64,000 bases of DNA, taken from NCBI GenBank assembly GCA_014323795.1, contig JACONK010000018.1:248001-312000 (forward strand), written 5' to 3'. The DNA comes from Paracoccaceae bacterium (GTDB taxonomy: Bacteria; Pseudomonadota; Alphaproteobacteria; Rhodobacterales; Rhodobacteraceae). The position numbers were made by a program, and so were the translations under genes. Shown one piece after another: positions 40,326 to 59,168 of the stretch (the stretch's first letter is position 1; the number at the start of each line of letters is the position of its first letter). The notes beneath the pieces were generated by a model, which saw only the letters and a list, made by a program, of their open reading frames with translations, searched no databases and was not told the DNA's origin.

Positions 40326-40745
40326 ATGACCAAGATATCCTTTGCCTCTCACCCGTTTTTACTGGGTTTTGAGCAACTCGACCGCCTGGTGGAACGCACA
40401 GCCAAGTCCAGCAACGAAGGCTATCCCCCCTACAACATTGAACAGGGTTCGGAACACAGCTACCGTATCACCTTGGCCGTGGCCGGATTTCGGCAGGAAG
40501 ATTTGTCGATCACGCTGGAAGACAGCCAGCTGGTGATCTGCGGTCGCCAGACAGACGAAAGCGAAAGCCGCATATTCCTGCATCGCGGCATCGCCGCACG
40601 GCAATTCCAACGCTCCTTTGTGCTGGCAGATGGCGTCGAAGTCGCCGGTGCATCTTTGGAAAACGGGCTGTTGCACCTGGACCTGCGGCGTCAGGCACCG
40701 GAGACTGTTGTGCAGACAATTCAGATCAGCAAAGGTGACAAATGA
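40326..40745 (+). CDS. Small heat-shock protein, Hsp20/IbpA type
   Basis: A 139-residue alpha-crystallin-domain holdase that binds unfolding proteins. The domain spans about residues 35-128: YNIEQGSEHSYRITLAVAGF, ITLEDSQLVICGRQ, the loop with RIFLHRGIAARQFQRSF, and GLLHLDLRR; the C-terminal IXI-like anchor is IQI. The N-terminus SFASHPFLLGFEQLDRL is the IbpA/HspH type. It is preceded by a perfect sigma-32 promoter and overlaps the DUF1150 gene. Confidence 0.93.
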   Translation: MTKISFASHPFLLGFEQLDRLVERTAKSSNEGYPPYNIEQGSEHSYRITLAVAGFRQEDLSITLEDSQLVICGRQTDESESRIFLHRGIAARQFQRSFVLADGVEVAGASLENGLLHLDLRRQAPETVVQTIQISKGDK

Positions 40746-40972
40746 TGGATACGAAGATCAGATTCCCCGAAACACATCCGGAACGGACAGTCTATGTACG
40801 CAGCGTCAAACACGATGAACTGCCGAAAGAGCTGAAGGCCCAGGTCGCGCCGGGCAAAAATCTCTTTGCCATTCATAAGGCGGATGGGGAATGCCTTGCC
40901 CTGACACGTGATCGATACGTGGCGTTTGCCATGGCACGGAGCAACGAAATGGCACCTGTCTCGGTTCACTGA
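40742..40972 (+). CDS. DUF1150 family protein
   Basis: A 76-residue small protein of the alphaproteobacterial DUF1150 family, almost always found directly after an Hsp20 gene. Visible features: YVRSVKHDELPKELKAQV, LFAIHKADGECLALTRDR and FAMARSNEMAPVSVH. It overlaps hsp20 at ATGA and shares its heat-shock promoter, so a helper role in the same stress response is inferred. Biochemical function is not known to me. Confidence 0.88.
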   Translation: MMDTKIRFPETHPERTVYVRSVKHDELPKELKAQVAPGKNLFAIHKADGECLALTRDRYVAFAMARSNEMAPVSVH

Positions 40973-41348: not shown

Positions 41349-43100
41349 TCAGCCGGAAATGAGTCCCATGTTTTCCAGTTTCAGGAGGATCTGCTGTGCG
41401 CAGGTATCAACGTGCAGGTTTTCTGTTTCCAGCCTCAGCTCCGGCTGTTCCGGAACATCGTAAACGTCTGAAATACCCGTGAACTCTTTAATTTTGCCCA
41501 GGCGTGCGAGCCTGTAGAGCCCCTTGCGGTCGCGCCGTTCGCATTCTTCAATGGACGTGGCGACATGGATCTCCACGAAAGCACCGTAGGCTTCTACCTC
41601 TTCGCGGACAGCGCGGCGCGTTGTGGCGTAGGGCGCAATCGGTGCGCAGATCGCGATACCGCCGTTCTTCGTGATCTCGGAGGCCACATAGCCAATGCGG
41701 CGGATGTTGATATCCCGGTGTTCTCTGGAAAACCCGAGTTCGGACGACAGATTTTTGCGCACGATATCCCCGTCAAGCAACGTCACCGGGCGACCCCCAA
41801 TCTCCATCAGTTTGACCAAAAGCGCGTTGGCGATGGTTGACTTTCCGGACCCTGAGAAGCCAGTGAAGAAGACAGTGAATCCCTGCCGGTTGCGCGGCGG
41901 ATAGCGCTTGCGCAGTTCATCCAACACTTCAGGAAAAGAGAACCATTCCGGGATCTCCAGCCCTTCACGCAGTCGGCGGCGCAATTCTGTGCCGGACAGG
42001 TTAAGGATGGTGACCCTGTCCTTGTCCGCAATCTCATCCGCAGGTTCGTACTGGGCGCGATCCTGAACGTAGACCATCTGTTTGAAGCCCACCATTTTTA
42101 TGCCCATTTCTTCCTCGTGTTCCCGGAAAATATCCTGCGCGTCATAAGGCCCGTAGAAATCCTCCCCCGCCCGGTTCTTGCCCGGGCCCGCATGATCGCG
42201 CCCCACGATGAAATGGGTGCAGCCGTGGTTTTTACGGATCAGACCGTGCCAGACAGCCTCTCGCGGGCCAGCCATACGCATGGCGAGGTTAAGAAGGCTC
42301 ATGGCCGTGGTTGCTCCCGGATATTTACCAAGCACCGCCTCATAACAGCGCACACGGGTGAAATGGTCCACGTCTCCCGGCTTCGTCAGGCCTACAACCG
42401 GGTGTAGCAGCAGGTTGGCCTGGCTGTCCTTTGCCGCGCGGAACGTCAGTTCCTGGTGGGCGCGATGCAGCGGGTTGCGGGTCTGGAAGGCCACAATCTT
42501 GCGCCAGCCGAGCTTGCGGAAATGGGCCCGCAGCTCATTCGGTGTGTCGCGACGACTGCGAAAATCATAGTGCACCGGCTTCTGGATGCCAGTGACCGGA
42601 CCACCCAAATAGACCGTGCCGGCTACATTGTGCAGATAGTTTACCGCCGGATGCGCATCGTCATCGGCACCAAATATCTTCTTGGCCTCATGCACCTTGT
42701 CCGGTATCCATCGGTCCGTCACGGTCATAGCGGCGAGGATCACCCCTTCCTGATCGCGCAGGGCGATATCCTGGCCCAACTCAATCGCGCCGGCAAACTC
42801 CTGACTTACGTCCAGCGTAATCGGTATCGGCCAAAGCGCACCATCGGCCAGACGCATATTATCCACAACGCCGACATAGTCAGCCTGACCCAGGAATCCC
42901 TTGAGGGGGCTGAAACCACCGTTCATCAAAAGTTCCAGGTCGCAGACCTGGCGCGGGGTCAGATACCAGCCCGGAAGTACCGCCACCTCTGCCTTCAATT
43001 TACAGGCACTGTCGTATGAAACATAAAGTTCGGGAATGGGACCATAGGGCGGATGTTCAATTCGGAAAGTTTCGGTCGAGAAGGTCGGAATTGTGGGCAT
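41349..43100 (-). CDS. Bifunctional sulfate adenylyltransferase / APS kinase
   Basis: A 583-residue fusion making PAPS from sulfate and two ATP. The N-terminal ATP sulfurylase carries QTRNPLHRAH at 206-215 (ATP-binding HxGH-like) and VGRDHAGPG; the C-terminal APS kinase carries the P-loop GFSGSGKST at about 414-422, LDGDIVRKNLSSELGFSRE and ICAPIAPYATTRR. ATG at 43100 is used; a TTG precedes it. This fusion type is common in roseobacters. Its direct neighbour (12 bp upstream) is a sulfotransferase, so the PAPS may be consumed as a sulfonyl donor instead of, or besides, assimilation; no PAPS reductase gene is in the window. Confidence 0.95.
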   Translation of the reverse strand: MPTIPTFSTETFRIEHPPYGPIPELYVSYDSACKLKAEVAVLPGWYLTPRQVCDLELLMNGGFSPLKGFLGQADYVGVVDNMRLADGALWPIPITLDVSQEFAGAIELGQDIALRDQEGVILAAMTVTDRWIPDKVHEAKKIFGADDDAHPAVNYLHNVAGTVYLGGPVTGIQKPVHYDFRSRRDTPNELRAHFRKLGWRKIVAFQTRNPLHRAHQELTFRAAKDSQANLLLHPVVGLTKPGDVDHFTRVRCYEAVLGKYPGATTAMSLLNLAMRMAGPREAVWHGLIRKNHGCTHFIVGRDHAGPGKNRAGEDFYGPYDAQDIFREHEEEMGIKMVGFKQMVYVQDRAQYEPADEIADKDRVTILNLSGTELRRRLREGLEIPEWFSFPEVLDELRKRYPPRNRQGFTVFFTGFSGSGKSTIANALLVKLMEIGGRPVTLLDGDIVRKNLSSELGFSREHRDINIRRIGYVASEITKNGGIAICAPIAPYATTRRAVREEVEAYGAFVEIHVATSIEECERRDRKGLYRLARLGKIKEFTGISDVYDVPEQPELRLETENLHVDTCAQQILLKLENMGLISG

Positions 43101-43112
43101 CAAGGTACTTTC

Positions 43113-43865
43113 TCAGACAGTTTTCGATACGCGAATGCGGTGTCGGAACAGATGATCATAATGTGGTTTCATGCGGCGATATATGCGGCGTACGCGTTCA
43201 GGCGTATTTTCCAGATCCACATACTTGCGCTTTTGCGGCGTCAGACCGGTAGACTTGGCCAGATTGGCATGGAACGACCCGCCATCCCACCAGCTATGCA
43301 CCGACTGATCACCGCTCGCCTGCCAGGTGAGTGCCTCGGCAATGAAGGGAAGGCTCACGGCGTCGCAAAAGGCGGCTGTCATGTCACGGGGATTTTCCAG
43401 CAGATCATCGCTGTCGATCACGGCCGGACAGGTGCCGTGCAACGCGGTAAGCAGGTCAAACAGCGCACGCTGTTCGGGAAAGCCGCATTCAAGCTCGTTG
43501 AAATCCGGCCATTTATCGTACATAGAGGTGGTCGTTTTTGCCGGATCACGGATCAGGAACGCATGGGTGAAATGCGACAGGAAGGCCGCATCCCACATGT
43601 GACTGACAGAATGCGCGAAGTCCTTGATAAAGACCGATCCCTTCCCGGCCCGCGCCCGGATATTGTCCCACACGCTTTCAATCGTCAGGCCCGGCGTTGT
43701 CACGTCGCCTGCCCGGAACCGCGGCCACATCGGGTCTTCGCCCTGATACCATGCCTCGCAGAAAGGCTCGTGCAGGCAGTCAAGATCACCGCGCTGGCGC
43801 ATCATCCATTCAAACGCGGTCGAGGTGGAGCGGGGGACCGCCCACAAGGCAACTATCCTGTGCAT
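43113..43865 (-). CDS. Sulfotransferase-like protein
   Basis: A 250-residue P-loop sulfotransferase-fold protein. The 5'-phosphosulfate loop is ALWAVPRSTSTAFEWMMRQR at the N-terminus, followed by LHEPFCEAWYQGEDP; the 3'-phosphate region has FLIRDPAKTTTSMYDKW, with the Arg-Asp-Pro and Ser expected for PAPS binding. It would move a sulfonyl group from PAPS to a small molecule. It is sandwiched between a racemase-fold enzyme (four-base gap) and the PAPS synthase (12-base gap), all on one strand, so the three form one operon. The acceptor is unknown; a kinase-like or inactive member cannot be ruled out. Confidence 0.82.
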   Translation of the reverse strand: MHRIVALWAVPRSTSTAFEWMMRQRGDLDCLHEPFCEAWYQGEDPMWPRFRAGDVTTPGLTIESVWDNIRARAGKGSVFIKDFAHSVSHMWDAAFLSHFTHAFLIRDPAKTTTSMYDKWPDFNELECGFPEQRALFDLLTALHGTCPAVIDSDDLLENPRDMTAAFCDAVSLPFIAEALTWQASGDQSVHSWWDGGSFHANLAKSTGLTPQKRKYVDLENTPERVRRIYRRMKPHYDHLFRHRIRVSKTV

Positions 43866-43869
43866 GGTT

Positions 43870-44706
43870 TCAGCCTTTCAGGGAGGACAGCAGGCTGCCC
43901 TGTTCGGTGGCAGGCGCAATCCCGAGGGATTTGAAAATACGCCAGTACAGCGCGGTGTCATGGCCAATGACCGGGGTGCCAAGTCGCGCTTCAAGTGCCA
44001 CTTCATGGTGCACCGGGCGCTGCGCCAGGCCATCGGAGGGACGGCGGTAATTGGACATACCGTTGATCAGATAGGCATCCGCACCGGGCGCCCGTTCAGC
44101 GGTGTAGTCAAAGGACTTCCACAACAGATCCTCGTCAAAGCACCAGATGCAGTCATCGATTTCCTTCTGGCTGCCGAACCAGCCCTGGTCCAGGAAATTC
44201 CCGGCCCAGACTACATCAAAGCCCGCCTCCCTAAGAAAGCCGACGGTGCCCTGGTACCAGGCCGTGCGGTGATAGCAGGCGTTCAGGGCCACTTTCTCAA
44301 CATTGCGATCATGCAGGGCCTCAACCATGGCGTAGCCTGCCATGTGAAAGGGCGTCTCATACCTGTCGGTCAGCATCTCGCAATGCCGGCGGATGCCCGC
44401 AACCCCCAGGCCACTGGCATGGACCCAGTTTGAGCCCACCTGGCCACAGACATCCGCACCGTTATTGGCCATGCATTCGACGAATTCTTCCAGCAGGCCA
44501 AAGTGCTTTTTCCGCTGGTCCAGCCTGTGCGCATAGTCCGGCACATGGAGCATCCGCCCATGTACGCCCACGCTGCGCGGGGCCATGCGCAGAAAATCCG
44601 ACGGTGCCGCGTCAAAATCATGGGGCGGGGCGGTAAACCCCACCTGGTGCGGGAAGAGCCTGACCCGGGGATTCGCCCATTTGGCAGGTTTCTGATAGGC
44701 AGACAT
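43870..44706 (-). CDS. Asp/Glu racemase-fold enzyme (maleate isomerase / arylmalonate decarboxylase type)
   Basis: A 278-residue cytoplasmic enzyme of the Asp/Glu racemase superfamily. It has the start VRLFPHQVGFTAPPHDFDAA, the first cysteine-side region CMANNGADVCGQVGSNWVHA, and the second-half block VEKVALNACYHRTAWYQGTV with GFDVVWAGNFLDQGWFG; the paired cysteines (NGADVCGQ and LNACYHR) sit where the two catalytic cysteines occur in the family. Possible reactions are decarboxylation, isomerisation or racemisation of a dicarboxylate. ATG at 44706 is chosen. It is the first gene of the sulfotransferase-PAPS operon and diverges from a LysR gene. A decayed relative lies at 58979-59168. Confidence 0.75.
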   Translation of the reverse strand: MSAYQKPAKWANPRVRLFPHQVGFTAPPHDFDAAPSDFLRMAPRSVGVHGRMLHVPDYAHRLDQRKKHFGLLEEFVECMANNGADVCGQVGSNWVHASGLGVAGIRRHCEMLTDRYETPFHMAGYAMVEALHDRNVEKVALNACYHRTAWYQGTVGFLREAGFDVVWAGNFLDQGWFGSQKEIDDCIWCFDEDLLWKSFDYTAERAPGADAYLINGMSNYRRPSDGLAQRPVHHEVALEARLGTPVIGHDTALYWRIFKSLGIAPATEQGSLLSSLKG

Positions 44707-44788
44707 GCTGGTTTCGTGTACCGGAAAGTATCGCTGCGGAGAGTGTCCGGGAACCGCCGTTAAAGACAATTGCTTTTGACGACCGGCA

Positions 44789-44810
44789 GACATATCAGAA
44801 ATGATATGTC
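44789..44810. promoter_or_regulatory. Perfect palindrome over the LysR start codon
   Basis: GACATATCA (44789-44797), four bases GAAA, then TGATATGTC (44802-44810): a perfect 9-4-9 inverted repeat. The ATG of the LysR gene (44806-44808) lies inside the right arm, and the divergent operon begins 83 bp to the left. It fits an operator at which the LysR protein represses itself and controls the sulfotransferase operon. Binding is inferred. Confidence 0.6.
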
Positions 44811-45705
44811 CAGGCGGCGCTATACCCCCCCGTCAAACAGCGCACTTGTCGCCTTTGAGGCGGCGGCACGGCTGCAGGGCTTTGCCCGGGCGGCCGCAGA
44901 GCTGAACACCTCGCAACCGGCCATCAGCCGCCATATCCGTAATCTTGAAATCCGGTTCGGGACCAGACTTTTTGATCGCCGGGGGCAGCGGATCACGCTC
45001 ACCCGAAAGGGGCGCGCATTTTATGCGGCGGTCGTGCAGTCCATGACCGCACTGCAGGACGCCATTGAAATGCTGGTGACACACGATCGGGATGTGACAA
45101 TCGCATGTTCGCATTCCGTGTCGCATCTTCTGCTCATGCCACGCTTTGCGCACCTGCGGCGCACCCTGGGATCCCAGGCTGATCTGCGGCTTTTAACTGT
45201 TGAGTACACTCTGCTGGATGCAGCCATCAACAGCGGTGCTGATATCATTTTCGAATATACATCGGCACCGCCGAAAGAACCCTATGTCGTTGTGTGCCGG
45301 GAAGAGGTCAAACCGGTCGGCACGCCGGGCATCATCGAACAGGCGCACAGTGCACTGACCATGGGGGTCGCCGCCCCGCCGCTGCTCCGATTGCAAAAGA
45401 CGAACTATGGCTGGATGGACTGGTCTGACTGGTGTTCGGCACACCCGGATTTTGGCACCTGGCCTGAAGGCGAGGAATTTGACAGCTACGTCTATCTGCT
45501 GGATGCCGCAGTGCGCGGTTCGGGACTGGCCTTGGGGTGGCGCGGATTTGTTGAACACTACATCATGCGCGGGGATCTCGCCGCGTTGCCGGGTGCCTGG
45601 TACTCCAAAGACACGCGGATCATCGCCAGGGCGACCCGTCCGGGACAAAATACCCCCGCCGTGCGGAAGTGCCTGCATGTGCTGGGTAATCTTACTGAAA
45701 ATTGA
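44806..45705 (+). CDS. LysR-family regulator of the sulfotransferase operon
   Basis: A 299-residue GcvA-like LysR protein: winged helix-turn-helix (ALVAFEAAARLQGFARAAAE, LNTSQPAISRHIRNLEIRFG, RLFDRRGQRITLT) and a two-lobed periplasmic-binding-type effector domain (from about residue 90, VTIACSHSVSHLLLMPRF). Start at 44806; a TTG 36 bases upstream is in frame. It is divergent from the racemase-fold/sulfotransferase/PAPS operon, the usual layout of a LysR gene and its target, and its start codon is inside a 22-base palindrome. The inducer is unknown, plausibly the operon's substrate. Confidence 0.9.
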   Translation: MSRRRYTPPSNSALVAFEAAARLQGFARAAAELNTSQPAISRHIRNLEIRFGTRLFDRRGQRITLTRKGRAFYAAVVQSMTALQDAIEMLVTHDRDVTIACSHSVSHLLLMPRFAHLRRTLGSQADLRLLTVEYTLLDAAINSGADIIFEYTSAPPKEPYVVVCREEVKPVGTPGIIEQAHSALTMGVAAPPLLRLQKTNYGWMDWSDWCSAHPDFGTWPEGEEFDSYVYLLDAAVRGSGLALGWRGFVEHYIMRGDLAALPGAWYSKDTRIIARATRPGQNTPAVRKCLHVLGNLTEN

Positions 45706-45882
45706 TGGAGTAGAGGTAAATTGAAGCAACGGGCTTTGGTCATATCCCGAAAAATCAAAGCACGTCGGAATTCGCCAATGCTGCCTTGATTATGGCAGGA
45801 GACGCGCCTTCATAACCCATGGGATCGGTTATTTCATTTGGCTACAAGGCGTCAGAACAAAGATGAATGATTCGCCTGTTCT

Positions 45883-46818
45883 CTAGTTCTGAACAGAGCA
45901 GGTTTCTACAGCCCGTTTGAATTCCTCGATTGCATAGTCCCAAATTGCTTTTCCAACATCTGAATTCGGCGCAAGAATATCAACCCCATGATACGCCCCC
46001 TTGAAGACCTGGAGCCTGGCGTCGACGCCGAAAGACCGCAGAAGGTCAAAATAGGCTAAATTCTGACCCAGAAATCCGTCATGATCACCGATAAATCCAA
46101 CCGCTGGCGGCAAGCCATGTAATGCTTTGGCACGTGCCGGTACAGAGTAATTTGGCGGGTCTGCTATGGCTTGCCCAAGGTAGAGTTTCCAACCCAGCCG
46201 GTTTTTCGTTTTGCTCCAGGCGAGAAGCGAATTCTCAATCTCTGTCCATTGGTCCGGTCGGTCATCAAGCATCGCGTACAACGGGAATTGGCATGCAATC
46301 CCGACCTCACCCTTGTCGCGGGCCATTTGGCAAAGTGACGCGGTTAAACCACCCCCGGCACTCTCACCCATGATAAAAATCTGGTCTAAGCGTCCGCCGA
46401 GGTTCCTGGCGTTGTCCCGCAGCCATATAAGAGCATCATAACAGTCGTATAATGCAGCCGGAAACGGTGCTTTCAGCGAGACCCGATAATCTGGCATTAC
46501 GAAGATGCCCGGTGCCGCGGAAATGTACCGGCGCACAATCTCATAATCCTGCTCTGGCACTCCGGCGGCGTAGCCGCCGCCATGAATATGCAGGACAACC
46601 GGCATGTTCATGGCTGTTTTTTTCGGCCTAACGACGACGAGCCGCACTTTTCCACCGTCGCGCCGGGGAATGCGGAGTTTTTCAACGTGAAGGGCGGATG
46701 GTGGCCGCACAAACCGGGTCAGCCTCAAGGCCGCGTACATCATCCGAAGCCCCAGCCTTGTGTCAGGAAAGGTCTTTAAGGCACGGTAGCCAAGGGTATT
46801 TGCCGTTGGGTCAATCAT
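45883..46818 (-). CDS. Alpha/beta hydrolase, hormone-sensitive-lipase type
   Basis: A 311-residue esterase of the HSL (family IV) group. The oxyanion motif HIHGGGYAAG, the nucleophile elbow GESAGGG (GDSAGG in most relatives), the acid GDHDGF and the His in GAYHGVD are all present. It hydrolyses ester bonds of small or lipid substrates. The region around it is somewhat more AT-rich than the window average. It is next to a tetR relic and two SDR genes, a neighbourhood suggesting a small catabolic cluster. Confidence 0.88.
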   Translation of the reverse strand: MIDPTANTLGYRALKTFPDTRLGLRMMYAALRLTRFVRPPSALHVEKLRIPRRDGGKVRLVVVRPKKTAMNMPVVLHIHGGGYAAGVPEQDYEIVRRYISAAPGIFVMPDYRVSLKAPFPAALYDCYDALIWLRDNARNLGGRLDQIFIMGESAGGGLTASLCQMARDKGEVGIACQFPLYAMLDDRPDQWTEIENSLLAWSKTKNRLGWKLYLGQAIADPPNYSVPARAKALHGLPPAVGFIGDHDGFLGQNLAYFDLLRSFGVDARLQVFKGAYHGVDILAPNSDVGKAIWDYAIEEFKRAVETCSVQN

Positions 46819-46846
46819 AGCGGATTACTCGCAGTTGTACGACACG

Positions 46847-47395
46847 TCAGTTTCGAAAAAGAATCTGCACAACGCGGTTCATCTCGTTGCCAAACTCCTG
46901 TGAGGTCCGGGTGTTGAGCATGATACCTTTAGCAGCCGAGTTCAGTGCATTGGCCTGCTCAATCGCCAAATCCATCGAATCCGACAGACCGATATCTACC
47001 AGAAAATCTACAAGATTCAGCATTAGGTCGCCTTCCAAATCCTTGCCGAAGGTCTTGGCATATCGCATCCCCGCGTCAAGTATTTCCGCCCCATGGGAGG
47101 TAGTGCCGATGATCGGAACAACTTCACTGACCAGTGTTCAAAAAACGCACACAACTTTTACTTTGGGTCAGGATTATTCCCATTTTTCAAAGCATCAAGT
47201 GCATCATCGATACCTTTCCCGATGAAAGATGCCAGTACCCGCTTAAAAGCACCTTCCCTGGATCAGAAGCGTTTATAGATGTACTGCTACTGCCGTGATA
47301 TCCCGGCAGATTGTGCAATGTCTTCCCTCGAGGTTTTCCACACTTCGTACCGGGCAAAAATCATCAGTATTTCTTTCGGGTCTATATCCTCTCTT
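46847..47395 (-). pseudogene. Decayed TetR-family regulator
   Basis: The helix-turn-helix half reads DPKEILMIFARYEVWKTSRE, DIAQSAGISRQ, then (after a stop) YIYKRF, then a stop, then SREGAFKRVLASFIGKGIDD and ALDALKNGNNPDPK before another stop; the next frame supplies SHGAEILDAGMRYAKTFGKD and the C-terminus ending at 46847. This is the layout of alphaproteobacterial TetR regulators (HTH ARYGVRKTSMEDIAQAAGVS; ligand domain SPHGAEILDAG). At least three in-frame stops and one frameshift destroy it. It lies between the hydrolase and the divergent SDR genes, the usual place for their repressor. Confidence 0.8.
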
Positions 47396-47440
47396 CACGA
47401 ATTACTGTGAACATAACGGGTATTTTTGTGATCTTATCGA

Positions 47441-47469
47441 TTGACAAAAATTACTGCCAAATTTAGGCT
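47441..47469 (+). promoter_or_regulatory. Probable promoter of the SDR pair
   Basis: TTGACA (47441-47446), a 17-base spacer and TAGGCT (47464-47469) lie 43 bp before the first SDR start. The -35 is perfect and the -10 weak. With the neighbouring tetR gene destroyed, this promoter may now be unrepressed (inference). Confidence 0.45.
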
Positions 47470-47511
47470 ACATTCCTATACAGACCCCCTTCTCCGTCCA
47501 GGGAAATCGTA

Positions 47512-48459
47512 ATGTCACATTCTCTTTTCCCAAACTCCGGGGTCCGCGCATGGAATGTCAACCGGCTTCCGGACCTGTCGGGCAAGACTTACCTCATCAC
47601 CGGCGGCAACCAGGGCCTTGGTTTTGAGGCCGGAAAACACCTGGGCCGGAAAGGCGCAAACCTGATCCTTGCCAGCCGCTCGGCTGATAAGGCCCGGAGG
47701 GCCGCATCAGACCTGGAAACCCGTATGAAGGGCAACGTCCATATCGTGCAGCTTGACCTGAGTGATTTGTCATCGGTGCGCAAAGCGGCCGAAGACGTGC
47801 ACCAGCGTTTCAAAAAGATTGACGGGCTGATCAACAATGCGGGTGTTATGCAAACGCCGGAACTCAAGACCAAAGACGGCTTTGAAATGCAGATGGGTAC
47901 CAATCATCTCGGGCATTTCCTTTTCACCGGGCTGCTTTTGGGCCTCGTGGAAGCTGCGGCTGGCCGGATCGTGACCCTGACCAGCATCGCCAACCGTTCG
48001 GGCGCAATGAACCTTGACGACCTCATGTCATCAAGGCACTACACGCCGACCGGGGCCTATGTGCAGTCCAAACTGGCGAACCTGATTTTCGCGCTCGATC
48101 TTGATCGTCGCCTGAAAGAAGCCAACAGTACCGCAATCTCAATCGGGTGCCACCCCGGCTATTCCAACACTGGTCTGCAAAGCAGCGGACCTGCCGGTTT
48201 GCTGAACATAATCTATAAAATCACAAACCCGCTCTTTGCACAGCCTCCGGCGCAAGGTGCGTTGCCAACCGTTCTGTCGGCCGCCGGCACCGAGGCACGG
48301 CGCGGCCACTATTACGGCCCTGGCAGGATGCGCGAGTTTCGTGGCCTGCCCGGCGATGCCAAAATCCCTGACGGCGCGAAAGATCAGGCCGTTTGGAAGC
48401 GGCTCTGGGATATGAGCGAAGATCTTGTCAGTTTCAAATGGACCATTCCGGCCAAGTGA
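47512..48459 (+). CDS. Short-chain dehydrogenase, retinol-dehydrogenase-like
   Basis: A 315-residue NAD(P)-dependent oxidoreductase. The cofactor motif is TGGNQGLG (TGxxxGxG), NNAGV follows, and the catalytic pair is Tyr/Lys in GAYVQSKLAN, with LTSIANRSG containing the catalytic Ser. The sequence is close to the long-chain retinol/WW-domain oxidoreductase-like SDRs, acting on hydrophobic alcohols or ketones. It is the first of two SDR genes 27 bp apart, downstream of a TTGACA promoter. Confidence 0.88.
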   Translation: MSHSLFPNSGVRAWNVNRLPDLSGKTYLITGGNQGLGFEAGKHLGRKGANLILASRSADKARRAASDLETRMKGNVHIVQLDLSDLSSVRKAAEDVHQRFKKIDGLINNAGVMQTPELKTKDGFEMQMGTNHLGHFLFTGLLLGLVEAAAGRIVTLTSIANRSGAMNLDDLMSSRHYTPTGAYVQSKLANLIFALDLDRRLKEANSTAISIGCHPGYSNTGLQSSGPAGLLNIIYKITNPLFAQPPAQGALPTVLSAAGTEARRGHYYGPGRMREFRGLPGDAKIPDGAKDQAVWKRLWDMSEDLVSFKWTIPAK

Positions 48460-48486
48460 TCCCCGGCCCCTAAAAAAGGACGCACA

Positions 48487-49311
48487 GTGCAGGAATTTCA
48501 GGACAAAGTTGTGGTTATCACCGGCGGTGCCACGGGCATCGGCTTCTCGCTGGCCAGGCAGCTCGGCCAGGAGGGTGCCCGTCTGATCCTTGCCGGACGG
48601 CGCCAGGATCGCCTGGATGAGGCGGTCGCGGAATTGGCCGGGTGTGGCATCCGGGCCATGGGCAGGCCCTGCGACGTGACCGTTCCTGCCGATGTTGAAG
48701 GGCTCGCCGACTTTGCCTGGGATCGCTGCGGCCAAGTGGATGCGATCATCAACAACGCGGGCATTCCGCCGGTTATCAGTACTACCATCAACGCCAAACC
48801 CGAAGACATTGAGCGCAATTTTAAAGTAAACGTGTTTGGTGTATGGAATGGGGTTTCGGTCTTCGGAAAGCGCTTTATCAAAGCCGGACATCCGTCAGGT
48901 ATCTATGCCGTCGGATCCGAAAACAGCCTGTTTTTCGGTGCACCCGGTGGTGCCATGTATGTTGCCGCGAAGCACGCATTGCATGGCATGATGGACGCAT
49001 TGCGCAGTGAAGCACCTGAGTTCCTCAGGATTGGGCTCATACTCCCCGGTTTCGTTAAATCCGAGATCGGTGACAATATGGATACTGCCATGGATACGGA
49101 TCGGTACACGCGCATGGTCGTGGAGCAAATCAGACAGGGTGAATTTTACATTGTCTCTCACGCTCACAACATGGTGCATATCAACAAGCGCTACCAGGAA
49201 ATCACCGCCGCATATGCGAAATATGCACCGCGCTATAAGGGCGACGAGGAATTCGACCTCCTGACCATGCTGGGCTCAGGCGATGGATCTGCGATTCTCG
49301 GACCCCGATAA
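48487..49311 (+). CDS. Short-chain dehydrogenase, classical type
   Basis: A 274-residue SDR. TGGATGIG is the cofactor motif, NNAGIPP the structural motif, and GSENSLFFGAPGGAMYVAAK includes the catalytic Ser, Tyr and Lys (YVAAK). Start is GTG with AAGGA seven bases upstream. It follows the first SDR closely, so both probably serve one pathway with the alpha/beta hydrolase. Substrate unknown. Confidence 0.87.
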   Translation: MQEFQDKVVVITGGATGIGFSLARQLGQEGARLILAGRRQDRLDEAVAELAGCGIRAMGRPCDVTVPADVEGLADFAWDRCGQVDAIINNAGIPPVISTTINAKPEDIERNFKVNVFGVWNGVSVFGKRFIKAGHPSGIYAVGSENSLFFGAPGGAMYVAAKHALHGMMDALRSEAPEFLRIGLILPGFVKSEIGDNMDTAMDTDRYTRMVVEQIRQGEFYIVSHAHNMVHINKRYQEITAAYAKYAPRYKGDEEFDLLTMLGSGDGSAILGPR

Positions 49312-49420
49312 ATGGCCCCGGGACAGAAGCCGATCCGTCTGTCGGGATGCCGCAACCATAAGGCCGGACAGATGAAGACCACGCGGCAGGTTTGCCAATC
49401 CCTTGTGCGAGGCTTGGGCC

Positions 49421-49942
49421 ATGACCGGTTTTTTTAGATTTGCGGTGCGCACGCCGGTGCTGATCGCAAGCCTGATCGGCACACTGGTGCTTCTGCTTCT
49501 GGTGTTTCCGAATCTGCCCGTTGGCGGACCAACCCTGGATACGCAGATCCGCTACGATTTCGCACACGCACATGCGCTGCTGGAACACTACGGGGAGGCG
49601 GGGCGCCGGATGTATGTGCGCGCATCGCTAACTTTAGATACGATTTTGCCAATGTTTTACGCGACCTGCTTTAGCGGGCTGATCTGTCGTTTCAGCCCCC
49701 TGCCAGGGCTGCGCCGCTGCGCATATCTGCCAATACTGACGGCTCTTTTCGATCTCGGCGAGAATGCGCAGGTGATGGCCATGCTGATTCAATACCCGGA
49801 TATATCTGAATGGCAGGTACAATGCGCTTCGGCCTTCACACAGATCAAATGGCTGTTGGCTGCCCTCTCCATACTCTGCGCGGCAGTTTTCGTGATGAGT
49901 GCCGCAATTGTGCGCATCGCTGCAAGGATGCACACAATTTAA
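49421..49942 (+). CDS. Four-helix membrane protein of unknown function
   Basis: A 173-residue protein with four predicted membrane helices (LIASLIGTLVLLLLVFPNL; TILPMFYATCFSGLICRF; AYLPILTALFDLGENAQVMA; IKWLLAALSILCAAVFVMS). The pattern, with YDFAHAHALLEHYGEAGRRM between helices one and two and an acidic LGEN in helix three, is a recurring hypothetical family in bacteria. Starts at 49421. Follows the SDR pair after 110 bp. Confidence 0.65.
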   Translation: MTGFFRFAVRTPVLIASLIGTLVLLLLVFPNLPVGGPTLDTQIRYDFAHAHALLEHYGEAGRRMYVRASLTLDTILPMFYATCFSGLICRFSPLPGLRRCAYLPILTALFDLGENAQVMAMLIQYPDISEWQVQCASAFTQIKWLLAALSILCAAVFVMSAAIVRIAARMHTI

Positions 49943-49977
49943 CGCAGCGGGCCGTTATCGGCCTTCGGCCGGGGCAC

Positions 49978-50715
49978 CTAAGCAGCTGCTGCGCGGGGGG
50001 ATGTTTCTACGTCTGCCCGAACAAACAGGCGCGGGTATTGCGCCCGTCCGTTTATACGGAAAACGCGGCCGGTGATTGAACCGGTGTCAATCCACCGCCC
50101 CACAGTTTCCGCCTGGAGACGATTTACATACCCAACCGTCTCACCACCTCTGCGCGCCAGCCTGATCGCATTCGGATCGCGTTCATTGGCCCGCTCACGT
50201 TCAAAGAAGATAGGCTCGGACTGCTCCAACTGATTGGAATCCGCGTAATAACGATAACCTGCCACATCGAATACGTAAGAAAAGCGGCCTTCAAAGCCTT
50301 CAAATGTCTCACATATCTCAAAGCTGTCACCGGTCAGCCGCGCACCTGTATAGGCTAACAATGTCAGGTCTGTGCAGCCCCCCTGGTCGGGCGGGAGGCC
50401 ACAGTCGCGCGAGAGACCAAAACGCTCCAGGATTTCGGGAAAGTCAGCGCGTTGACGCGAGGGAAGGCAGCGTACCAGAACCCTGGACGCGATGCGATCC
50501 AAATCACGCGACCCGATTGGAAGGCCGGGATACCCGTTGAAGCCATCTTCACGAGCCGAGGCGAGGTGTGCCGGGTCGAGCTACCGGAATTTTATAACGT
50601 TTGAACCCTGGACAAGCTCCGCCACCGCATGCCGATCACGGCTTCCGGATCCGTCCAGTGGACGCTGCCACACCAGAAGGGCACGTCGGGTCGGGATCGG
50701 GTTCTCTATCAACAT
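49978..50715 (-). pseudogene. HIRAN-domain protein gene with one in-frame TAG
   Basis: A single frame of 246 codons runs from ATG at 50715 to the stop at 49978, broken only by TAG at 50581-50583 (codon 45). The N-terminus reads MLIENPIPTRRALLVWQRPL; after the TAG come GLPIGSRDLDRIASRVLVRC and the C-terminal HIRAN domain (FFERERANERDPNAIRLARR, GETVGYVNRLQAETVGRW, GRAQYPRLFVRADV). HIRAN domains bind DNA ends or damaged DNA. The ATG overlaps the stop of the upstream HipA-like kinase gene (TGATG), so they are coupled. A shorter protein from ATG at 50502 could still contain HIRAN. Whether the TAG is real is undecided. Confidence 0.7.
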
Positions 50716-51656
50716 CAGGCTTTGCACAGCACGTTCCTAATGCGTTCCACGCCTATCTGCAACATGGCATATATATGTTGACGCCGCCTTTCTGAAAGGG
50801 AGTAAGGGTCCGGCAGGGGTATTCGTTCTGCGATTGTATTCATAAGGTGCCCCACGGCATCGATATCGACCCCTTTCGCCCTTTCGAACCGGTGTCTGCC
50901 TTCCGGATAGTGTCGCGGGAACGCGATGCATACGTCTTCGAAGGTGCCACCGCATTTTTCAGGCTTATCCAGCCGCAGATGGTGGCGTCCTTTCTGCCGT
51001 TGTTTTTCCAGGTGCGCGGCTTTCAATTTGCCATCGGCATCAAAGGCGCGGTCCAATCTGACCTTCTCAGTGCCACACTCCAGGCTTGATCCGTTATCAT
51101 AAAGCGGGGCCATCCGAACGCCTTTTGGCCCCTCAATGATGGCCCAGTTTTCAGCATGACGGTCCGTGTTGGAGATCAGGGTATCCAGTGCGAGCCCCCG
51201 GGCCCAGAAATCCATGAAGTCGTCCCGCTTCAAATCCTTATCCAGAAGGCCGTCACATACCCGAATAATCAATGGCAGAGTGTGCCTGGTACCCTTAACC
51301 ACATCAAAATCAGGGTCGACCCGGGTACAGAACTGCCAGCCCTCCGTGAAAGTCTCGCTCTCAGGTTCGTAGACATATCGCAAAAGGTTGCCATGTCTGT
51401 TTCCCAGACAGGCTATGGAAGTATGCTGAACGTCCCAACCGAGAAGATCACCTGCGATGCAGGAGGCAAGCAATTCCGACCACACCTGATGTTCCCTGTG
51501 CTTCCCGGGGAACTTGTAAATATGATGAAGACCCGTTTTGGGATCGATTAACGTTGCCTTTTCTCTGGATCCGGTTGGAACCTCTTCTTCCCGACTCCAA
51601 TCATCGAAATCGATGACTTGTGAGACATCTATATACGAAGGATGGCCCATGTTCAC
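50715..51656 (-). CDS. HipA-like protein kinase
   Basis: A 313-residue kinase-fold protein resembling the HipA C-terminal domain but shorter than HipA (about 440 residues). ATP-site residues are visible: Lys48 in HHIYKFPGK, Glu61 in QVWSELLAS, the catalytic loop ISNTDRHAENWAII (Asp165, Asn170) and the metal-binding Asp187 in MAPLYDNGSSL. HipA kinases phosphorylate proteins such as GltX and act in toxin-antitoxin systems; here the target is unknown and no HipB-like HTH antitoxin is adjacent. Instead a HIRAN-domain gene is translationally coupled downstream. The gene is preceded by IS3 debris. Confidence 0.8.
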   Translation of the reverse strand: MNMGHPSYIDVSQVIDFDDWSREEEVPTGSREKATLIDPKTGLHHIYKFPGKHREHQVWSELLASCIAGDLLGWDVQHTSIACLGNRHGNLLRYVYEPESETFTEGWQFCTRVDPDFDVVKGTRHTLPLIIRVCDGLLDKDLKRDDFMDFWARGLALDTLISNTDRHAENWAIIEGPKGVRMAPLYDNGSSLECGTEKVRLDRAFDADGKLKAAHLEKQRQKGRHHLRLDKPEKCGGTFEDVCIAFPRHYPEGRHRFERAKGVDIDAVGHLMNTIAERIPLPDPYSLSERRRQHIYAMLQIGVERIRNVLCKA

Positions 51657-51679
51657 CCGCTCTGATTATGGGTCCGGCA

Positions 51680-51965
51680 CGGCATCAGCTGAAAGAAGTT
51701 CCCGGCCACAGCGTTATCGTGGTAATTGCCCCTACGGCTCATCGAGTGTTCCAATCCATGCTTGCGCAGAAAGGTGGCCCACGCACGGCTTGCGAACGGA
51801 GCACCTTGATCAGAATGGATGAGCAGGCCCGGATCTGGTTTTCGCCGCCGGATTGCCGGCTGATACCGGGCCGGTCGGCCACTTCCTTGACCGAATACCC
51901 CGCTCCGTGATCTGCGCCACAGCGTTGATCTTGAACTCGTCCGAATACCGAATTGGCCCTGACAT
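51680..51965 (-). mobile_element. IS3-family insertion sequence remnant
   Basis: OrfA begins at 51965 with MSGPIRYSDEFKINAVAQIT followed by ERG, then shifts frame to YSVKEVADRPGISRQS, matching the helix-turn-helix of IS3 OrfA. OrfB survives as HSDQGAPFASRAWATFLRKH, GLEHSMSRRGNYHDNAVAGN and FFQL, the end of the DDE domain; the catalytic Glu expected in NAVAESFF is replaced (AVAGNFF). Over 700 bp between the two are deleted. No terminal repeats could be assigned. It cannot transpose. Confidence 0.8.
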
Positions 51966-52023
51966 TTACAGCGTTCCTTGCTGCCAAATTACCAGGAAAA
52001 GCGTTTGCAAATCCAGGGGCAGC

Positions 52024-53076
52024 TCAGGCGTCGCCAATCGGAAAAGGTACGCGGCCCGGAACGCGGGCCTTGTTGAACTCCCGCAGGCGGGCAAATACGT
52101 CGACTCCCATCTGCCTGTATGCATCGAGAATATCTACCATCACCCAGTTTTCGCGGATCTTGCCGCGCTCCATGCGCCAGAAATCCAAGGATCGCATGGT
52201 TATCCGCCTGGAGGTAGGGGCAATCCCCATCCAGCCGTTGTGGGTGATTGTCTGGATCATATTGGGCCAGCCTGTGACTGCAGCATAATCCCCGTCACCA
52301 AAGAAATGATACTTAATGTCGTCAACGTATTGACCCCGGTCAGGCATGGCGTTGATGAACGGGATTTGATGCCAGTTTCTGAACCCCCTTATGCCGCGTC
52401 CGGTTCCGATTCCTGCGGGGCCATACCAGTTGGCCCTGTCGCTCCAGAAACGCGGCATCTCCATGACCTCGGGCCCGCCAAGCCGCGGATGCCTTTTCAT
52501 GTGCCGGAGCATGGCCACAATATGATTGCACGATGCATTGGAACGCTCTTCGTCCCGCGGCCCCCGGACAATGCCGTCATTGGTTGCGGGCCCCGGAATG
52601 CAGAACTCCAGGCCCAGAGACGGTGCCATGGGCCAGGCTTTGGCCTGCATCATGACCTCGGGAATATCCCAAAGTGCCTGTATTTCAATCACGGCACCAT
52701 CTTTAATCCGGTAGAACTCATGAAAGCGCATGTGCGTCAGATGTCCGGTTGGCGGAATATCCAGCCAGGGACCGACAAAGGTGCCGATATAATGACCGCC
52801 GGATCCCACCCAGTTGTCGCCATGTTCGGTGCGCCCGCCCATAACGATCCAATCTCGCCGCTCAAGGTCGGGCATGGCGGAAAAGAGCGGCGCGTAACAG
52901 ACGTCATAGAACGCCCGGGGACCGGTCAGATCGCCAAAAGGATGTGGCATATGAATGATCGCATCCGGGCCGATCACCGCATCCAGGGCCGTGCGTACGC
53001 GGGCCTCGTCAAAATCGATCATCGCGCTGCGCAAACCGGCGACAAGTGCCTTATTTTCTGAATGAACGTCAATCAT
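52024..53076 (-). CDS. Tandem SnoaL-like (NTF2-fold) protein
   Basis: A 350-residue protein of two NTF2/SnoaL-like domains (about residues 5-160 and 180-340). Domain one has VIGPDAIIHMPHPFGDLTGP, FVGPWLDIPPTGHLTHMRFH and GAVIEIQALWDIP; domain two has RNWHQIPFINAMPDRGQY, HNGWMGIAPTSRRITMRSLD and FWRMERGKIRENWVMVDILD. SnoaL-type cyclases or lyases act on small polar or polyketide substrates. It is the last gene of the ABC transporter operon (25 bp after the second permease), so it probably acts on the imported compound. Exact reaction unknown. Confidence 0.78.
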   Translation of the reverse strand: MIDVHSENKALVAGLRSAMIDFDEARVRTALDAVIGPDAIIHMPHPFGDLTGPRAFYDVCYAPLFSAMPDLERRDWIVMGGRTEHGDNWVGSGGHYIGTFVGPWLDIPPTGHLTHMRFHEFYRIKDGAVIEIQALWDIPEVMMQAKAWPMAPSLGLEFCIPGPATNDGIVRGPRDEERSNASCNHIVAMLRHMKRHPRLGGPEVMEMPRFWSDRANWYGPAGIGTGRGIRGFRNWHQIPFINAMPDRGQYVDDIKYHFFGDGDYAAVTGWPNMIQTITHNGWMGIAPTSRRITMRSLDFWRMERGKIRENWVMVDILDAYRQMGVDVFARLREFNKARVPGRVPFPIGDA

Positions 53077-53101
53077 CTCTTGGGCATGGCCTGGGGGTAT
53101 G

Positions 53102-53983
53102 CTACCCTTTCACGGCACCAGCGGTCAGACCGCTTACAATCTGACGCTGGAAAAACAGGATGAGCACAAACAGCGGTGCCGTAGCCGATACAACGGCAGC
53201 GACCGCATACATGACCTTGCCCTCGACCTGGGTCGTCCCGAGGAAACTGTTGATGGCGGGAATAATGGTCTCGTTTTCCTCGTTCAGCAGCATCGCCGTC
53301 ACGGTAAAATCGTTATAGGCGAGCAGGAAGCTGAACAGACCGGTGGTAATGACACCGGGCCACATCACGGGAACGATTACACGCCCGAAGGCCTGGAAGC
53401 GCGTACAGCCATCCACCATGGCACTTTCATCTAGATCCTTGGGAATGTTGAGAAAGAAGGAATGCAGCATCCACAAAGTGAACGGCTGATTGATAGCCAC
53501 CAGCACAATGATAGTCGTTGGAATCTTCCCCCAGATGTTCCATTCAAAGAATGGCAGCAGATAGCCGGATACCAGCGTGATATGGGGCATGGCCCGGAAG
53601 ACCAGGGCGGCCATAAGCAGCCAGAACGCATATCGGAATCCGGAACGTGCCAGCGCGTAGCCTCCCAGCGTCCCGAAAGTGAGCGAAATGACGACAGTGA
53701 AAAATACGACAATACCTGTGTTGATGACATTCTCCCAGAATCCTTCGATCACCCAGGCACCGTGATAACCTGCACCAGTGAAGGCATCGCCGGTCTCTCT
53801 GGTTGTGTTGATGCCCCATAGGGCGTTGGTCCAGTCCGCTTTCGAAAAAAAGTCTGCCTGTACTTTGAAACTGCCCCAGAACGTCCAGAGGAATGGAAAA
53901 GCAGCGATAATCAGCCACAAGCCGACAAGAAGGAATGCAATCAGCCTGCCCGGGGTCAACCGGTTTTCAAGTTGGGTTGCCAT
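53102..53983 (-). CDS. Carbohydrate-type ABC permease (MalG-like)
   Basis: A 293-residue inner-membrane permease with six predicted helices. The EAA loop that docks the ATPase reads DLDESAMVDGCTRFQAFGRV. The C-terminus (FFQRQIVSGLTAGAVKG) is typical of MalG/UgpE-type proteins. A periplasmic loop of about 60 residues after helix one is longer than usual. It pairs with the upstream MalF-like permease (nine bases between). Confidence 0.92.
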   Translation of the reverse strand: MATQLENRLTPGRLIAFLLVGLWLIIAAFPFLWTFWGSFKVQADFFSKADWTNALWGINTTRETGDAFTGAGYHGAWVIEGFWENVINTGIVVFFTVVISLTFGTLGGYALARSGFRYAFWLLMAALVFRAMPHITLVSGYLLPFFEWNIWGKIPTTIIVLVAINQPFTLWMLHSFFLNIPKDLDESAMVDGCTRFQAFGRVIVPVMWPGVITTGLFSFLLAYNDFTVTAMLLNEENETIIPAINSFLGTTQVEGKVMYAVAAVVSATAPLFVLILFFQRQIVSGLTAGAVKG

Positions 53984-53992
53984 GAGCCGCCC

Positions 53993-55024
53993 TCAATGTG
54001 CCTTGCGGTTGAAATCGCGCCAGGTGCGGATCAGCACTGGTGTCAGCAGGATGATCACACCTATGATCGTCAGGATGGATGTGGCCCCGGCCGAGCCATA
54101 GAGCGGGTTCCCGCTCTCTCTTAGATCGTTGAAGATGATCCAGCTCAGCGATCTGGCGTGGGCCTCTGCAGAGAAGCTCACAATCGGTTCAAACACGCGA
54201 AAATTATCCATCAGAAGCATCAGCGTAACAAAGGCCACCAGCGGCATCAGGTGTGGCACTGTCACATGGATGGTACTTTGCCACCCGGTTGCCCCATCGA
54301 CCCGTGCGGCCTCTAGCACGTCCCCCGGCACGGTTTGCAGCCCGGCATAGAAGGTGATGAAACTGAAGGGCAGCGTATGCCAGATGCCATAGACGATCAG
54401 CATAGTCCAGGTGAGCGGCGCGGAGGCTTTGAGGCTCAAATTGGGATCATCAAAAATTAACTGTATCGTCGCACCGATAACGCCGTCGCCATCAACCATC
54501 CAGAACAAGATCAGAGATCCTACGAGAGGCGTCACCAGAAACGGCAGCAGCGACACAAAGATTGACGGGCCCTTGATCAGTCCGGGCAGCCGGTTGACAC
54601 CCAGCGCGATGGCCATGCCCAGAAGAATCACCATGGGCGTCACGACAGCGGTATAGGTCAGCGTAAAGGCCAAGGCACGGTAGAAGGGCAAATCGCCAAC
54701 TGTGCGCCGGAACTCTCCGAAGGTGGCACTATCGGCCCAGGCAGCCCCGATTTCGGCCACCGCCAGATGGGATCGGTTGATATACGTATCGAAACCGTTG
54801 AATTGGCCCAGAGGTTTTTCCTCGCGCAATTTTTCAGTGGCTTCTATGTCAATTGACGTCGATTCAGTGCATCCAAACGGGCCACAGCTTTCCGATACCA
54901 CGAGTACCTGTTCATGCTCCACAAAAAGCGACTGCACAAACACCGATACAATCGGCAGTGCAATGAAAAGAAGCATTGAGGTGAGTGTTGGAAGGACGAA
55001 CCAAAAGAAGGTTCGGTGTTTCAT
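53993..55024 (-). CDS. Carbohydrate-type ABC permease (MalF-like)
   Basis: A 343-residue permease with a first helix (FFWFVLPTLTSMLLFIALPI), a periplasmic insert of about 80 residues carrying two cysteines (VSESCGPFGC), and five further helices. The EAA loop reads GDVLEAARVDGATGWQSTIH. Starts at 55024. Forms the heterodimeric channel with the MalG-like partner downstream; substrate-binding and ATPase genes precede it in the operon. Confidence 0.92.
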   Translation of the reverse strand: MKHRTFFWFVLPTLTSMLLFIALPIVSVFVQSLFVEHEQVLVVSESCGPFGCTESTSIDIEATEKLREEKPLGQFNGFDTYINRSHLAVAEIGAAWADSATFGEFRRTVGDLPFYRALAFTLTYTAVVTPMVILLGMAIALGVNRLPGLIKGPSIFVSLLPFLVTPLVGSLILFWMVDGDGVIGATIQLIFDDPNLSLKASAPLTWTMLIVYGIWHTLPFSFITFYAGLQTVPGDVLEAARVDGATGWQSTIHVTVPHLMPLVAFVTLMLLMDNFRVFEPIVSFSAEAHARSLSWIIFNDLRESGNPLYGSAGATSILTIIGVIILLTPVLIRTWRDFNRKAH

Positions 55025-55099
55025 GGCGCGTATCCGACGGAAAATACAGTTCAATGGAGAGAGGTGCGGGATGCGCACCTCTCTCCCGGTTAGCAGGAT

Positions 55100-57440: not shown

Positions 57441-57519
57441 AAACACCTCCCGCACGGAATACGCCCTGCTTGGACGGAGGGTAGACCAGGAATGGATTTT
57501 AAGATAATGAATTTATTTC

Positions 57520-58482: not shown

Positions 58483-58626
58483 CCTGCGGACGCATCGATC
58501 ATTTGTCTTTGCCCGGCCCGCTTGCAAGACCAGGGGCCTGGCAGGTGCTCACAGCAGGCAGGCTTTCCGCGCAGGTCTGCGAATAAGCGGATAACCTGGA
58601 ATCGTTTGTCGTTGGCAAGGCGCGTT

Positions 58627-58660
58627 CCGGACGGGCCGCTTCCTGAAACGACCCGTCCGG
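58627..58660 (+). terminator. Hairpin downstream of the LysR gene
   Basis: CCGGACGGG (58627-58635) pairs with CCCGTCCGG (58652-58660) across a 16-base loop. No T-tract follows. It may end the LysR transcript. The surrounding 58483-58978 holds no gene I can recognise. Confidence 0.4.
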
Positions 58661-58978
58661 GGCGGGTGTGCCCCGCAGGACAAGCCGCAATCGCGGAAAT
58701 ATCCTTCCCGCTGTGGCACCGGGCAACCCGGAACCCGGCGTCAACCCGCTGGCCTGTGCGTCACAGGTTCCTGCGGTCCAGGCACTAAAGGCAGGGCGGC
58801 GCAGGGGCCGCCTCCGGTGTCGCAATTCCGCTGCCTGCCAAAGGGGGCAGGCCGGCCATGGGCACCGGCGGCGGGCAGGGCGAATCAAAGAACGCGCCGC
58901 GGATGCTTTCTGCACGAAGGCTGAAACAGCACTCCGCTTTGCGACCCACAATACGACCGAACCCCTTCCCATAGCACC

Positions 58979-59168
58979 GGGCGTTGCGCAACCCCATCGG
59001 CGGGGCGGCGATAATAGACAGGCCGTTCCTCATCAAGGCACTGTATGCAGTCATCTATTTCCTGCCGACTCATGAACCGTCCCTGATCGAAAAAGTTCCC
59101 GGTCCGGACCACTGGCATGGATGCGGTTTGAGGCTGCCTGATGGGGGAAGACTGATCTGTTTTTCCAT
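58979..59168 (-). pseudogene. Internally deleted relic of a racemase-fold gene
   Basis: Minus-strand frames contain RSVFPHQ and SNRIHASG, then GNFFDQGRFMSRQEIDDCIQ followed by CLDEE, then YYRRPADGVAQRPV. These match in order RVRLFPHQ, SNWVHASG, GNFLDQGWFGSQKEIDDCIW with CFDED, and NYRRPSDGLAQRPV of the intact enzyme encoded at 43870-44706. The segments between them, including both catalytic cysteines, are deleted or frame-shifted. The 5' remnant runs into the 3' end of trxB. Confidence 0.75.

Follow-up and report, generated by a model that had tools for sequence, protein, structure and literature searches.

What do a racemase-fold protein and a sulfotransferase do when they are encoded side by side, and does the sulfate-activating enzyme encoded behind them serve the same function? 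These questions are raised by a locus in a 64,000-nucleotide stretch of contig JACONK010000018.1 from a Paracoccaceae bacterium (the window), which a first-pass annotation had described as a possible dedicated sulfonation operon with a divergent LysR regulator. A check of the open reading frames (ORFs) returned the coordinates and strands of all four genes as first described. Three lie on the reverse strand, separated by gaps of 4 bp and 12 bp, the latter counting satC from its second codon (ATG): RAC (43870..44706; ORF 43870-44793), encoding an Asp/Glu-racemase-superfamily protein with an arylmalonate-decarboxylase-like fold and without both catalytic cysteines; SULF (43113..43865), encoding a sulfotransferase; and satC (41349..43103), encoding a fused ATP sulfurylase/adenosine 5′-phosphosulfate (APS) kinase, that is, a 3′-phosphoadenosine 5′-phosphosulfate (PAPS) synthase. 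The regulator gene lysR (44806..45705; ORF 44770-45705) is divergent from RAC on the forward strand. By homology the start of RAC is probably at 44706 (ORF residue 30), residues 1-29 having a predicted local distance difference test (pLDDT) score below 50 and no counterpart in most alignment rows, and lysR probably starts at 44806, an ATG ahead of the conserved part.

We tentatively propose that RAC and SULF form an obligate PAPS-dependent two-enzyme module that would extend the catabolism of marine betaine-type osmolytes (quaternary ammonium, carboxylate-bearing compounds), with RAC expelling sulfate.

RAC and SULF occur as a pair

The pairing was examined in the best 80 of 134 RAC relatives from a scan of genome contigs, a selection that favours close relatives. 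At all 80 loci RAC is followed immediately by SULF in the same orientation (one copy is truncated where its contig ends and another is split in two). By the start choice made, the gap between them has a median of 2 bp and does not exceed 30 bp in 73 of the 80, and 28 pairs overlap. Because this sample had been chosen on RAC, a second was taken from 198 genomes of the family. RAC is present in 12 of these, and SULF, searched independently, scores above 390 bits in 11 of the 12, each match lying within 170 bp of RAC on the same strand (11/11 testable genomes); the twelfth RAC is cut off by a contig end, and the next SULF-like match after this set drops to 173 bits. At the level of the order, RAC was found in 14 of 196 genomes, with SULF adjoining it at 14 of 15 RAC places. 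The exception (G280) is a RAC in two pieces whose match is interrupted by a stop and which has no SULF within the 3.3 kb retrieved; on contig 11 of that genome (L097, L099) it belongs to a cluster that lacks SULF and in which the aldehyde dehydrogenase match is likewise split in two.

Conserved synteny had been put forward as a check on all three genes. It holds for RAC and SULF and fails for the three-gene order, satC following SULF at only 8 of the 80 loci. From their strict pairing and their often overlapping start and stop, the two enzymes seem to act in succession on one compound.

By record titles, the module is found in mostly marine Alpha- and Gammaproteobacteria. RAC had no match at E 1e-20 in the 72,556 plasmid records searched with it, and SULF gave five weak plasmid matches (up to 35.7%). 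The pair was not described in the literature searched, as judged from titles and the starts of abstracts among the matches listed, preprints and most subscription journals lying outside the search. Further copies were seen in a few genomes: a second RAC (51%) and SULF (46%) lie near RieskeB- and DMGDH-like genes in what looks like a parallel system (L098; G302 contig 31), and at two loci a further SULF paralogue lies upstream of RAC (47% in L030, 45% in L033).

RAC lacks the catalytic cysteines of its superfamily

The only Pfam match of RAC is Amdase (PF17645), at 21.6 bits, below the cut-off of 25.9. Its structural model (mean pLDDT 88.5) retrieved 4ix1 first in Foldseek, followed by arylmalonate decarboxylase (AMDase; 2vlb, E 5.9e-12) and maleate isomerase (4fq5, E 1.6e-10). 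AMDase and maleate cis-trans isomerase share the fold of RAC, and their loops at the presumed carboxylate site can be aligned with those of RAC, whereas RAC differs from both in having glycine at both Cys positions, in extra conserved insertions (the DQGW and NYRRPSDG regions) and in its sub-cut-off Pfam score. In an hhalign alignment with nine AMDase-like or isomerase-like proteins, built from 9 of the 15 loci fetched for it, the superfamily cysteine of the CTS loop corresponds to Gly120 and that of the SCG loop to Gly245, and both positions are glycine in 75/75 RAC sequences. RAC therefore has neither the two-cysteine signature (CTS and SC(T/G) loops) that we take to mark racemases and maleate isomerases nor the single catalytic cysteine of AMDase, presumably Cys188, which aligns with Gly245. 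With both catalytic cysteines lost, RAC is without the usual Cys chemistry of its family and, judged by sequence, is not a working racemase. The racemase fold seen in the first-pass annotation thus stands, and a racemase function is not supported. The closest solved structure both by sequence (E 3.5e-23) and by Foldseek, the uncharacterised Rhodococcus opacus protein OPAG_01669 (4ix1), likewise lacks both cysteines by our reading of the alignment but is only 26% identical to RAC.

Around these glycines the protein is strongly conserved: S121, N122, W123, H125, N171, Y174, H175, W179, N199, Q203, W217, N248, R259 and D279 are invariant in the 75 sequences, and 83 columns are invariant across a set of 47, several of them in presumed active-site loops. 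We infer from the alignment that RAC retains carboxylate-binding loops with an altered chemistry, and a quaternary ammonium compound as substrate would be in keeping with its invariant Trp residues.

SULF is a predicted PAPS-dependent sulfotransferase

SULF belongs to Pfam family Sulfotransfer_5 (PF19798; E 2.2e-17) and carries PRSTST and IRDP..S motifs, which we take to bind PAPS. Within them, P11, R12, S13, T16 and R106 are conserved in 74/74 sequences, S114 in 73/74 and Asp107 in 70/74, giving both the 5′-phosphosulfate loop (PRSxT type) and the 3′-phosphate motif (R..S) of the PAPS-dependent enzymes. The PAPS-type sulfotransferase first proposed for this gene is therefore the predicted activity here too.

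The Foldseek list of the SULF model (pLDDT 91.5) contains tyrosylprotein sulfotransferases, one of them at its head, with CurM at rank 2, an olefin-synthase sulfotransferase at rank 7 and retinol dehydratase at ranks 17 and 19, all at modest TM-scores (0.4-0.6). CurM is also the sole sulfotransferase among the 34 PDB matches of the SULF profile (E 0.023). CurM, the olefin-synthase sulfotransferases and retinol dehydratase have the sulfotransferase fold and couple sulfation to elimination, the first two acting on carrier-bound acyl chains and the last on retinol. The sequence similarity of SULF to this group is marginal and, together with the modest TM-scores, keeps the sub-type assignment tentative.

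The place of a tyrosylprotein sulfotransferase at the head of the list, like the lack of known catalytic residues in RAC, would suit a SULF that modifies a macromolecule, either protein tyrosine or polysaccharide, with RAC as a non-catalytic binding or regulatory partner. We hold this to be very unlikely, since RAC has the 83 invariant columns described above, several of them in presumed active-site loops, and since the recurrent neighbours of the pair are small-molecule enzymes, with betaine-type transporters in a few loci.

Two other sulfotransferase-like features were seen in the window's genome. A second, broken SULF-like remnant on contig C10 (25641-26248; L148:8642-9249) adjoins a paralogous enolase-ADH-DMGDH-like cluster, and this cluster is divergent from a RieskeB-type Rieske gene. 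On contig C37, two tandem proteins (L147:5294-6418 and 6431-7540) have an N terminus with what we take to be a sulfotransferase-like motif; they lie beside a sucC-like gene and near a Rieske cluster, and the first has no NCBIfam match.

Genes of a possible betaine catabolism recur near the pair

Neighbours of the pair were counted in the 80 loci by searches with representative proteins in fetched flanks of 7 kb; many contigs end early, so the counts are lower bounds that depend on the representatives and thresholds. A Rieske gene, RieskeA, for whose product carnitine monooxygenase ranks first among PDB matches (6y8j, E 1.9e-62), occurs at 33 of 80 loci (identity to the representative is ≥56% at 32 of them and 35% at L031), and its adjacency requires 6 changes on the RAC tree. 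The other recurrent neighbours are DMGDH-like (dimethylglycine-dehydrogenase-like) genes at 33 loci (some at only 26-37%), MDR at 31, RpiR at 28, CMD at 26, FrhB-like at 20, aldehyde dehydrogenase at 18, GFA at 15 and a dddQ-like cupin at 7. The labels GFA and DMGDH-like are our own, presumptive reading, GFA having no NCBIfam match, and the names RpiR, CMD and betaine-aldehyde-dehydrogenase-like come from NCBIfam matches below cut-off or from plasmid annotation. At one locus (L020) the order RAC-SULF-satC-frhB is followed by glycine-betaine-type ATP-binding cassette (ABC) transporter genes. FrhB as a required partner was set aside, the window's genome giving no match in a search run without a positive control.

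This context points to betaine-type compounds as the acceptor class. The Rieske enzyme and the enolases near RAC-SULF resemble those of the catabolic systems for carnitine, proline betaine and hydroxyproline betaine (CntA, HpbD); the cluster enolases score below the cut-off of the cis-3-hydroxyproline dehydratase model that they match, and have PDB matches 2pmq and 4h2h, both of which we take to be HpbD. We know of no sulfotransferase in the described carnitine, proline-betaine or hydroxyproline-betaine systems. A second comparison is offered by the roseobacter dddQ cluster. An MDR gene is also present in 6 of the 7 RAC-SULF loci with a dddQ-like gene, and the linkage of an MDR gene to dddQ noted in 2012 in Ruegeria pomeroyi (SPO1593) and Roseovarius nubinhibens (ISM_14095) fits this cluster type (PMC3338564). 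The passages of that paper on the dddQ cluster make no mention of a sulfotransferase or a racemase-fold gene (PMC3338564).

In the window's genome the Rieske/DMGDH-type genes lie apart from the pair, on contig C37, which encodes RieskeA (70%), RpiR, DMGDH-like, ADH, dddQ-like (28%), aminotransferase and CMD proteins and enolases. There CMD directly follows RieskeA, and RAC-SULF is absent from the slot that it holds in relatives. The C37 aminotransferase is 84% identical to that of a Ruegeria plasmid, whose nearest PDB relative is taurine:2-oxoglutarate aminotransferase. Among plasmids, seven carry a RieskeA relative, and all four that were opened (67-80% identity) encode a Rieske protein, an oxidoreductase dependent on flavin adenine dinucleotide (FAD), CMD, enolase and class III aminotransferase without RAC-SULF; the core pathway therefore does not need the module.

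A core cluster that exists without the pair on four plasmids, and neighbours that vary between loci, are what would be expected if the pair served osmolyte metabolism by some other chemistry, for example if sulfation traps a reactive intermediate or if the compound handled by RAC is never touched by SULF. The strict pairing and the frequent start/stop overlap, with the consecutive steps that they suggest, make this quite unlikely in our judgement.

satC and the supply of PAPS

satC matches NF004040 at 994.8 bits (cut-off 669) and has PUA_2, ATP-sulfurylase and APS-kinase domains, the make-up of a bifunctional PAPS synthase (Sat-CysC), in agreement with the initial assignment. Its supposed use for sulfonation rather than assimilation did not hold up. 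It is the one satC found in the window's genome (estimated 98% complete), which also has two PF01507 matches, one of them PAPS-reductase-like and on another contig. This CysH-like protein ends in ECGLH, has no CC pair and is taken here to be PAPS-dependent; the other match is presumably DndC-like, and on the motifs that we assume to be diagnostic neither resembles CysD. The DndC-like match (L003:958-2271, contig C22) may be a DNA phosphorothioation gene.

The neighbourhood of satC is conserved as well. In 15 same-genus satC stretches, hsp20-DUF1150 adjoins the gene in 13 and trxB-lrp-like genes lie directly 5′ in 11, with both arrangements in 9. In the window, hsp20 and DUF1150 (40326..40972, forward strand) are in place, and the trxB gene (59169-60119, reverse strand), which we call thioredoxin-reductase-like from its Pfam domain and presumed identity, and the Lrp/AsnC gene lrp (60421-60915, forward strand) lie about 16 kb away. 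A segment of about 16 kb (43104..59168), with SULF, RAC and lysR at its satC edge, therefore separates trxB-lrp from satC. Across the family, satC occurs in 164/198 genomes and RAC in 12/198, which makes satC core and RAC accessory. As the only copy found, in a conserved neighbourhood and with a PAPS-reductase-like gene elsewhere, the window's satC must serve assimilation too. A satC dedicated to sulfonation was rejected for this genome on its single copy and conserved neighbours, and no PAPS synthase separate from the assimilatory one was found in it.

These results also bear on the scheme in which RAC racemises or isomerises a dicarboxylate-like acceptor, SULF then sulfates it and satC acts as the dedicated PAPS source. 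The superfamily fold of RAC and the position of satC in the operon speak for it; glycine at both catalytic Cys positions, and a satC that is the sole copy found and keeps its conserved neighbours, leave it highly improbable.

PAPS-making genes lie beside the pair at 13 of 80 loci, which requires 9 changes on the 75-row RAC tree in a count made without a shuffle control. satC follows SULF at L006, L013, L015, L019, L020, L033, L036 and L037, being seen at L013 and L036 only as short matches (33 and 39 residues) at contig ends, and an APS kinase adjoins RAC-SULF at L031, L042, L047, L052 and L053. The two APS kinases that were opened are fused to an eEF1A-C-like domain (L052:5927-6976 and L053:4563-5789, 349 and 408 residues; L047:4700-5749 by similarity), with no GTPase domain match in the L052 and L053 fusions. 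Among the eight linked-satC genomes, two (L006 and L015) carry another full-length satC elsewhere besides the linked copy. The L020 and L037 genomes gave one satC each, and the L013 and L036 genomes none at E 1e-30; two partial matches were obtained for L033 (6.1 Mb assembly), and for L019 two incomplete stretches that may belong to a single gene. Two relatives thus have a second, linked copy, whereas the window's genome gave only one satC.

The history of the window's satC was addressed with two trees. In a purK+hsp20 tree (17 rows) the window falls inside its genus (support 100/99), whereas in a satC tree (21 rows) it falls outside (95/93) on a long branch; an approximately unbiased (AU) test did not reject the genus clade for satC (p 0.132). 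On these results satC may or may not have been co-transferred with RAC-SULF. A separate clade of RAC-linked satC was unsupported (5 changes against a shuffled mean of 5.6). At L100 (4119-6188) and other same-genus loci, the satC frame is open for about 115 codons upstream, and this part reads like a MarR-type winged-helix protein, which may be a fusion or a chance opening of the frame.

A divergent regulator and its predicted box

The divergent LysR gene of the first-pass annotation was confirmed, with HTH_1 and LysR_substrate domains, and a conserved box is predicted between it and RAC. The inverted repeat GACATATCA-GAAA-TGATATGTC (44789..44810) lies 5′ of the conserved start of RAC, at a distance of about 83-104 bp, and overlaps the lysR start; it is of the T-N11-A type, which we take to be a LysR box. 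The box ATATCA-GAAA-TGATAT is the sole match in the window at ≤1 mismatch (0.04 expected). In a scan covering the loci other than L084-L099, ATATC-N6-GATAT was found upstream of RAC at 19 of 80 loci, which by record titles include both Alpha- and Gammaproteobacteria (L028, L053); L020 and L105 also have it elsewhere. Among 16 lysR-RAC intergenic regions, 13 have the strict box and three a degenerate one (L021, L022, L041). The predicted LysR box is thus common to one part of the RAC family.

The best NCBIfam model of lysR is the choline-sulfate utilisation regulator (TIGR03418), at 153.8 bits against a cut-off of 324.8, so that membership is not assigned. This likeness favours our main alternative, in which the sulfate ester is an end product: an O-sulfated betaine or another ester would be kept as an osmolyte or exported, RAC making or changing its precursor. 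The position of RAC ahead of SULF in the operon agrees with such a role, as does the separation of the window's pair from the catabolic cluster. Against it, the regulator scores below half of the choline-sulfate cut-off, and the pair lies near a Rieske gene at 33 of 80 loci, mostly with an FAD/GcvT-type gene, which looks catabolic; we consider this alternative unlikely.

A possible sulfation and elimination route

For the catabolic module that we favour, the following route can be envisaged, in which the substrate class, the order of the steps and the elimination chemistry are inferred. SULF, from its family and motifs, would sulfate a hydroxyl group, either on the substrate itself or on an intermediate, with PAPS as donor. 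RAC would most likely act on the sulfated product and expel sulfate in an elimination, perhaps with decarboxylation, through invariant residues such as Tyr174/His175, Asn122 or His125. The product would then be demethylated and oxidised by the carnitine-monooxygenase-like Rieske enzyme and the FAD/GcvT-type (dimethylglycine-dehydrogenase-like) enzyme, joined in some clusters by a class III aminotransferase. In the window's lineage the module lies beside the PAPS synthase rather than within such a cluster, under its own LysR and box.

A more specific version is possible if rather doubtful. SULF would make a sulfate leaving group on a hydroxylated betaine such as carnitine or hydroxyproline betaine, and the Cys-less AMDase-fold enzyme would expel it without coenzyme A activation; the dehydroxylated betaine would pass to Rieske/DMGDH demethylation, and the roseobacter dddQ cluster would at least in part be a betaine-degradation cluster.

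Several observations weigh against the betaine module in general. RAC was found in only 3 of 299 genomes in a phylum survey, the window included, all from the window's family, and the 80 loci are tilted towards close relatives. SULF paralogues at 75-173 bits are widespread, the SULF profile matching in 120/198 family genomes. The placement of the RAC active site rests on an alignment, and the structural matches of SULF are modest. In addition, 47 of 80 loci show no RieskeA within the fetched flanks, all four opened plasmid clusters do without the pair, and the FrhB-like gene found near it in relatives had no match in the window's genome.

The remainder of the segment

Beyond SULF, RAC and lysR, the segment of about 16 kb encodes an abhydrolase, two SDRs, HIRAN, HipA_C and SnoaL proteins, a sugar-type ABC transporter and another LysR. 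The genes for the HIRAN-domain (49978-50502) and HipA_C-domain (50715-51656) proteins lie near each other, and the SnoaL-like protein, the transporter and the divergent LysR gene occupy 52024-58482.

Implications

RAC represents a Cys-less branch of a well-studied enzyme superfamily. Together with SULF it forms a testable gene set with a conserved regulator and a putative operator, for which the occurrence of the same cluster with and without the module provides a natural comparison. The pair recurs near clusters that may consume algal osmolytes, some with a dddQ-like gene, pointing to a previously undescribed sulfation step in betaine-type breakdown clusters. If this is true, PAPS would be spent on breaking a compound down, an unusual strategy.

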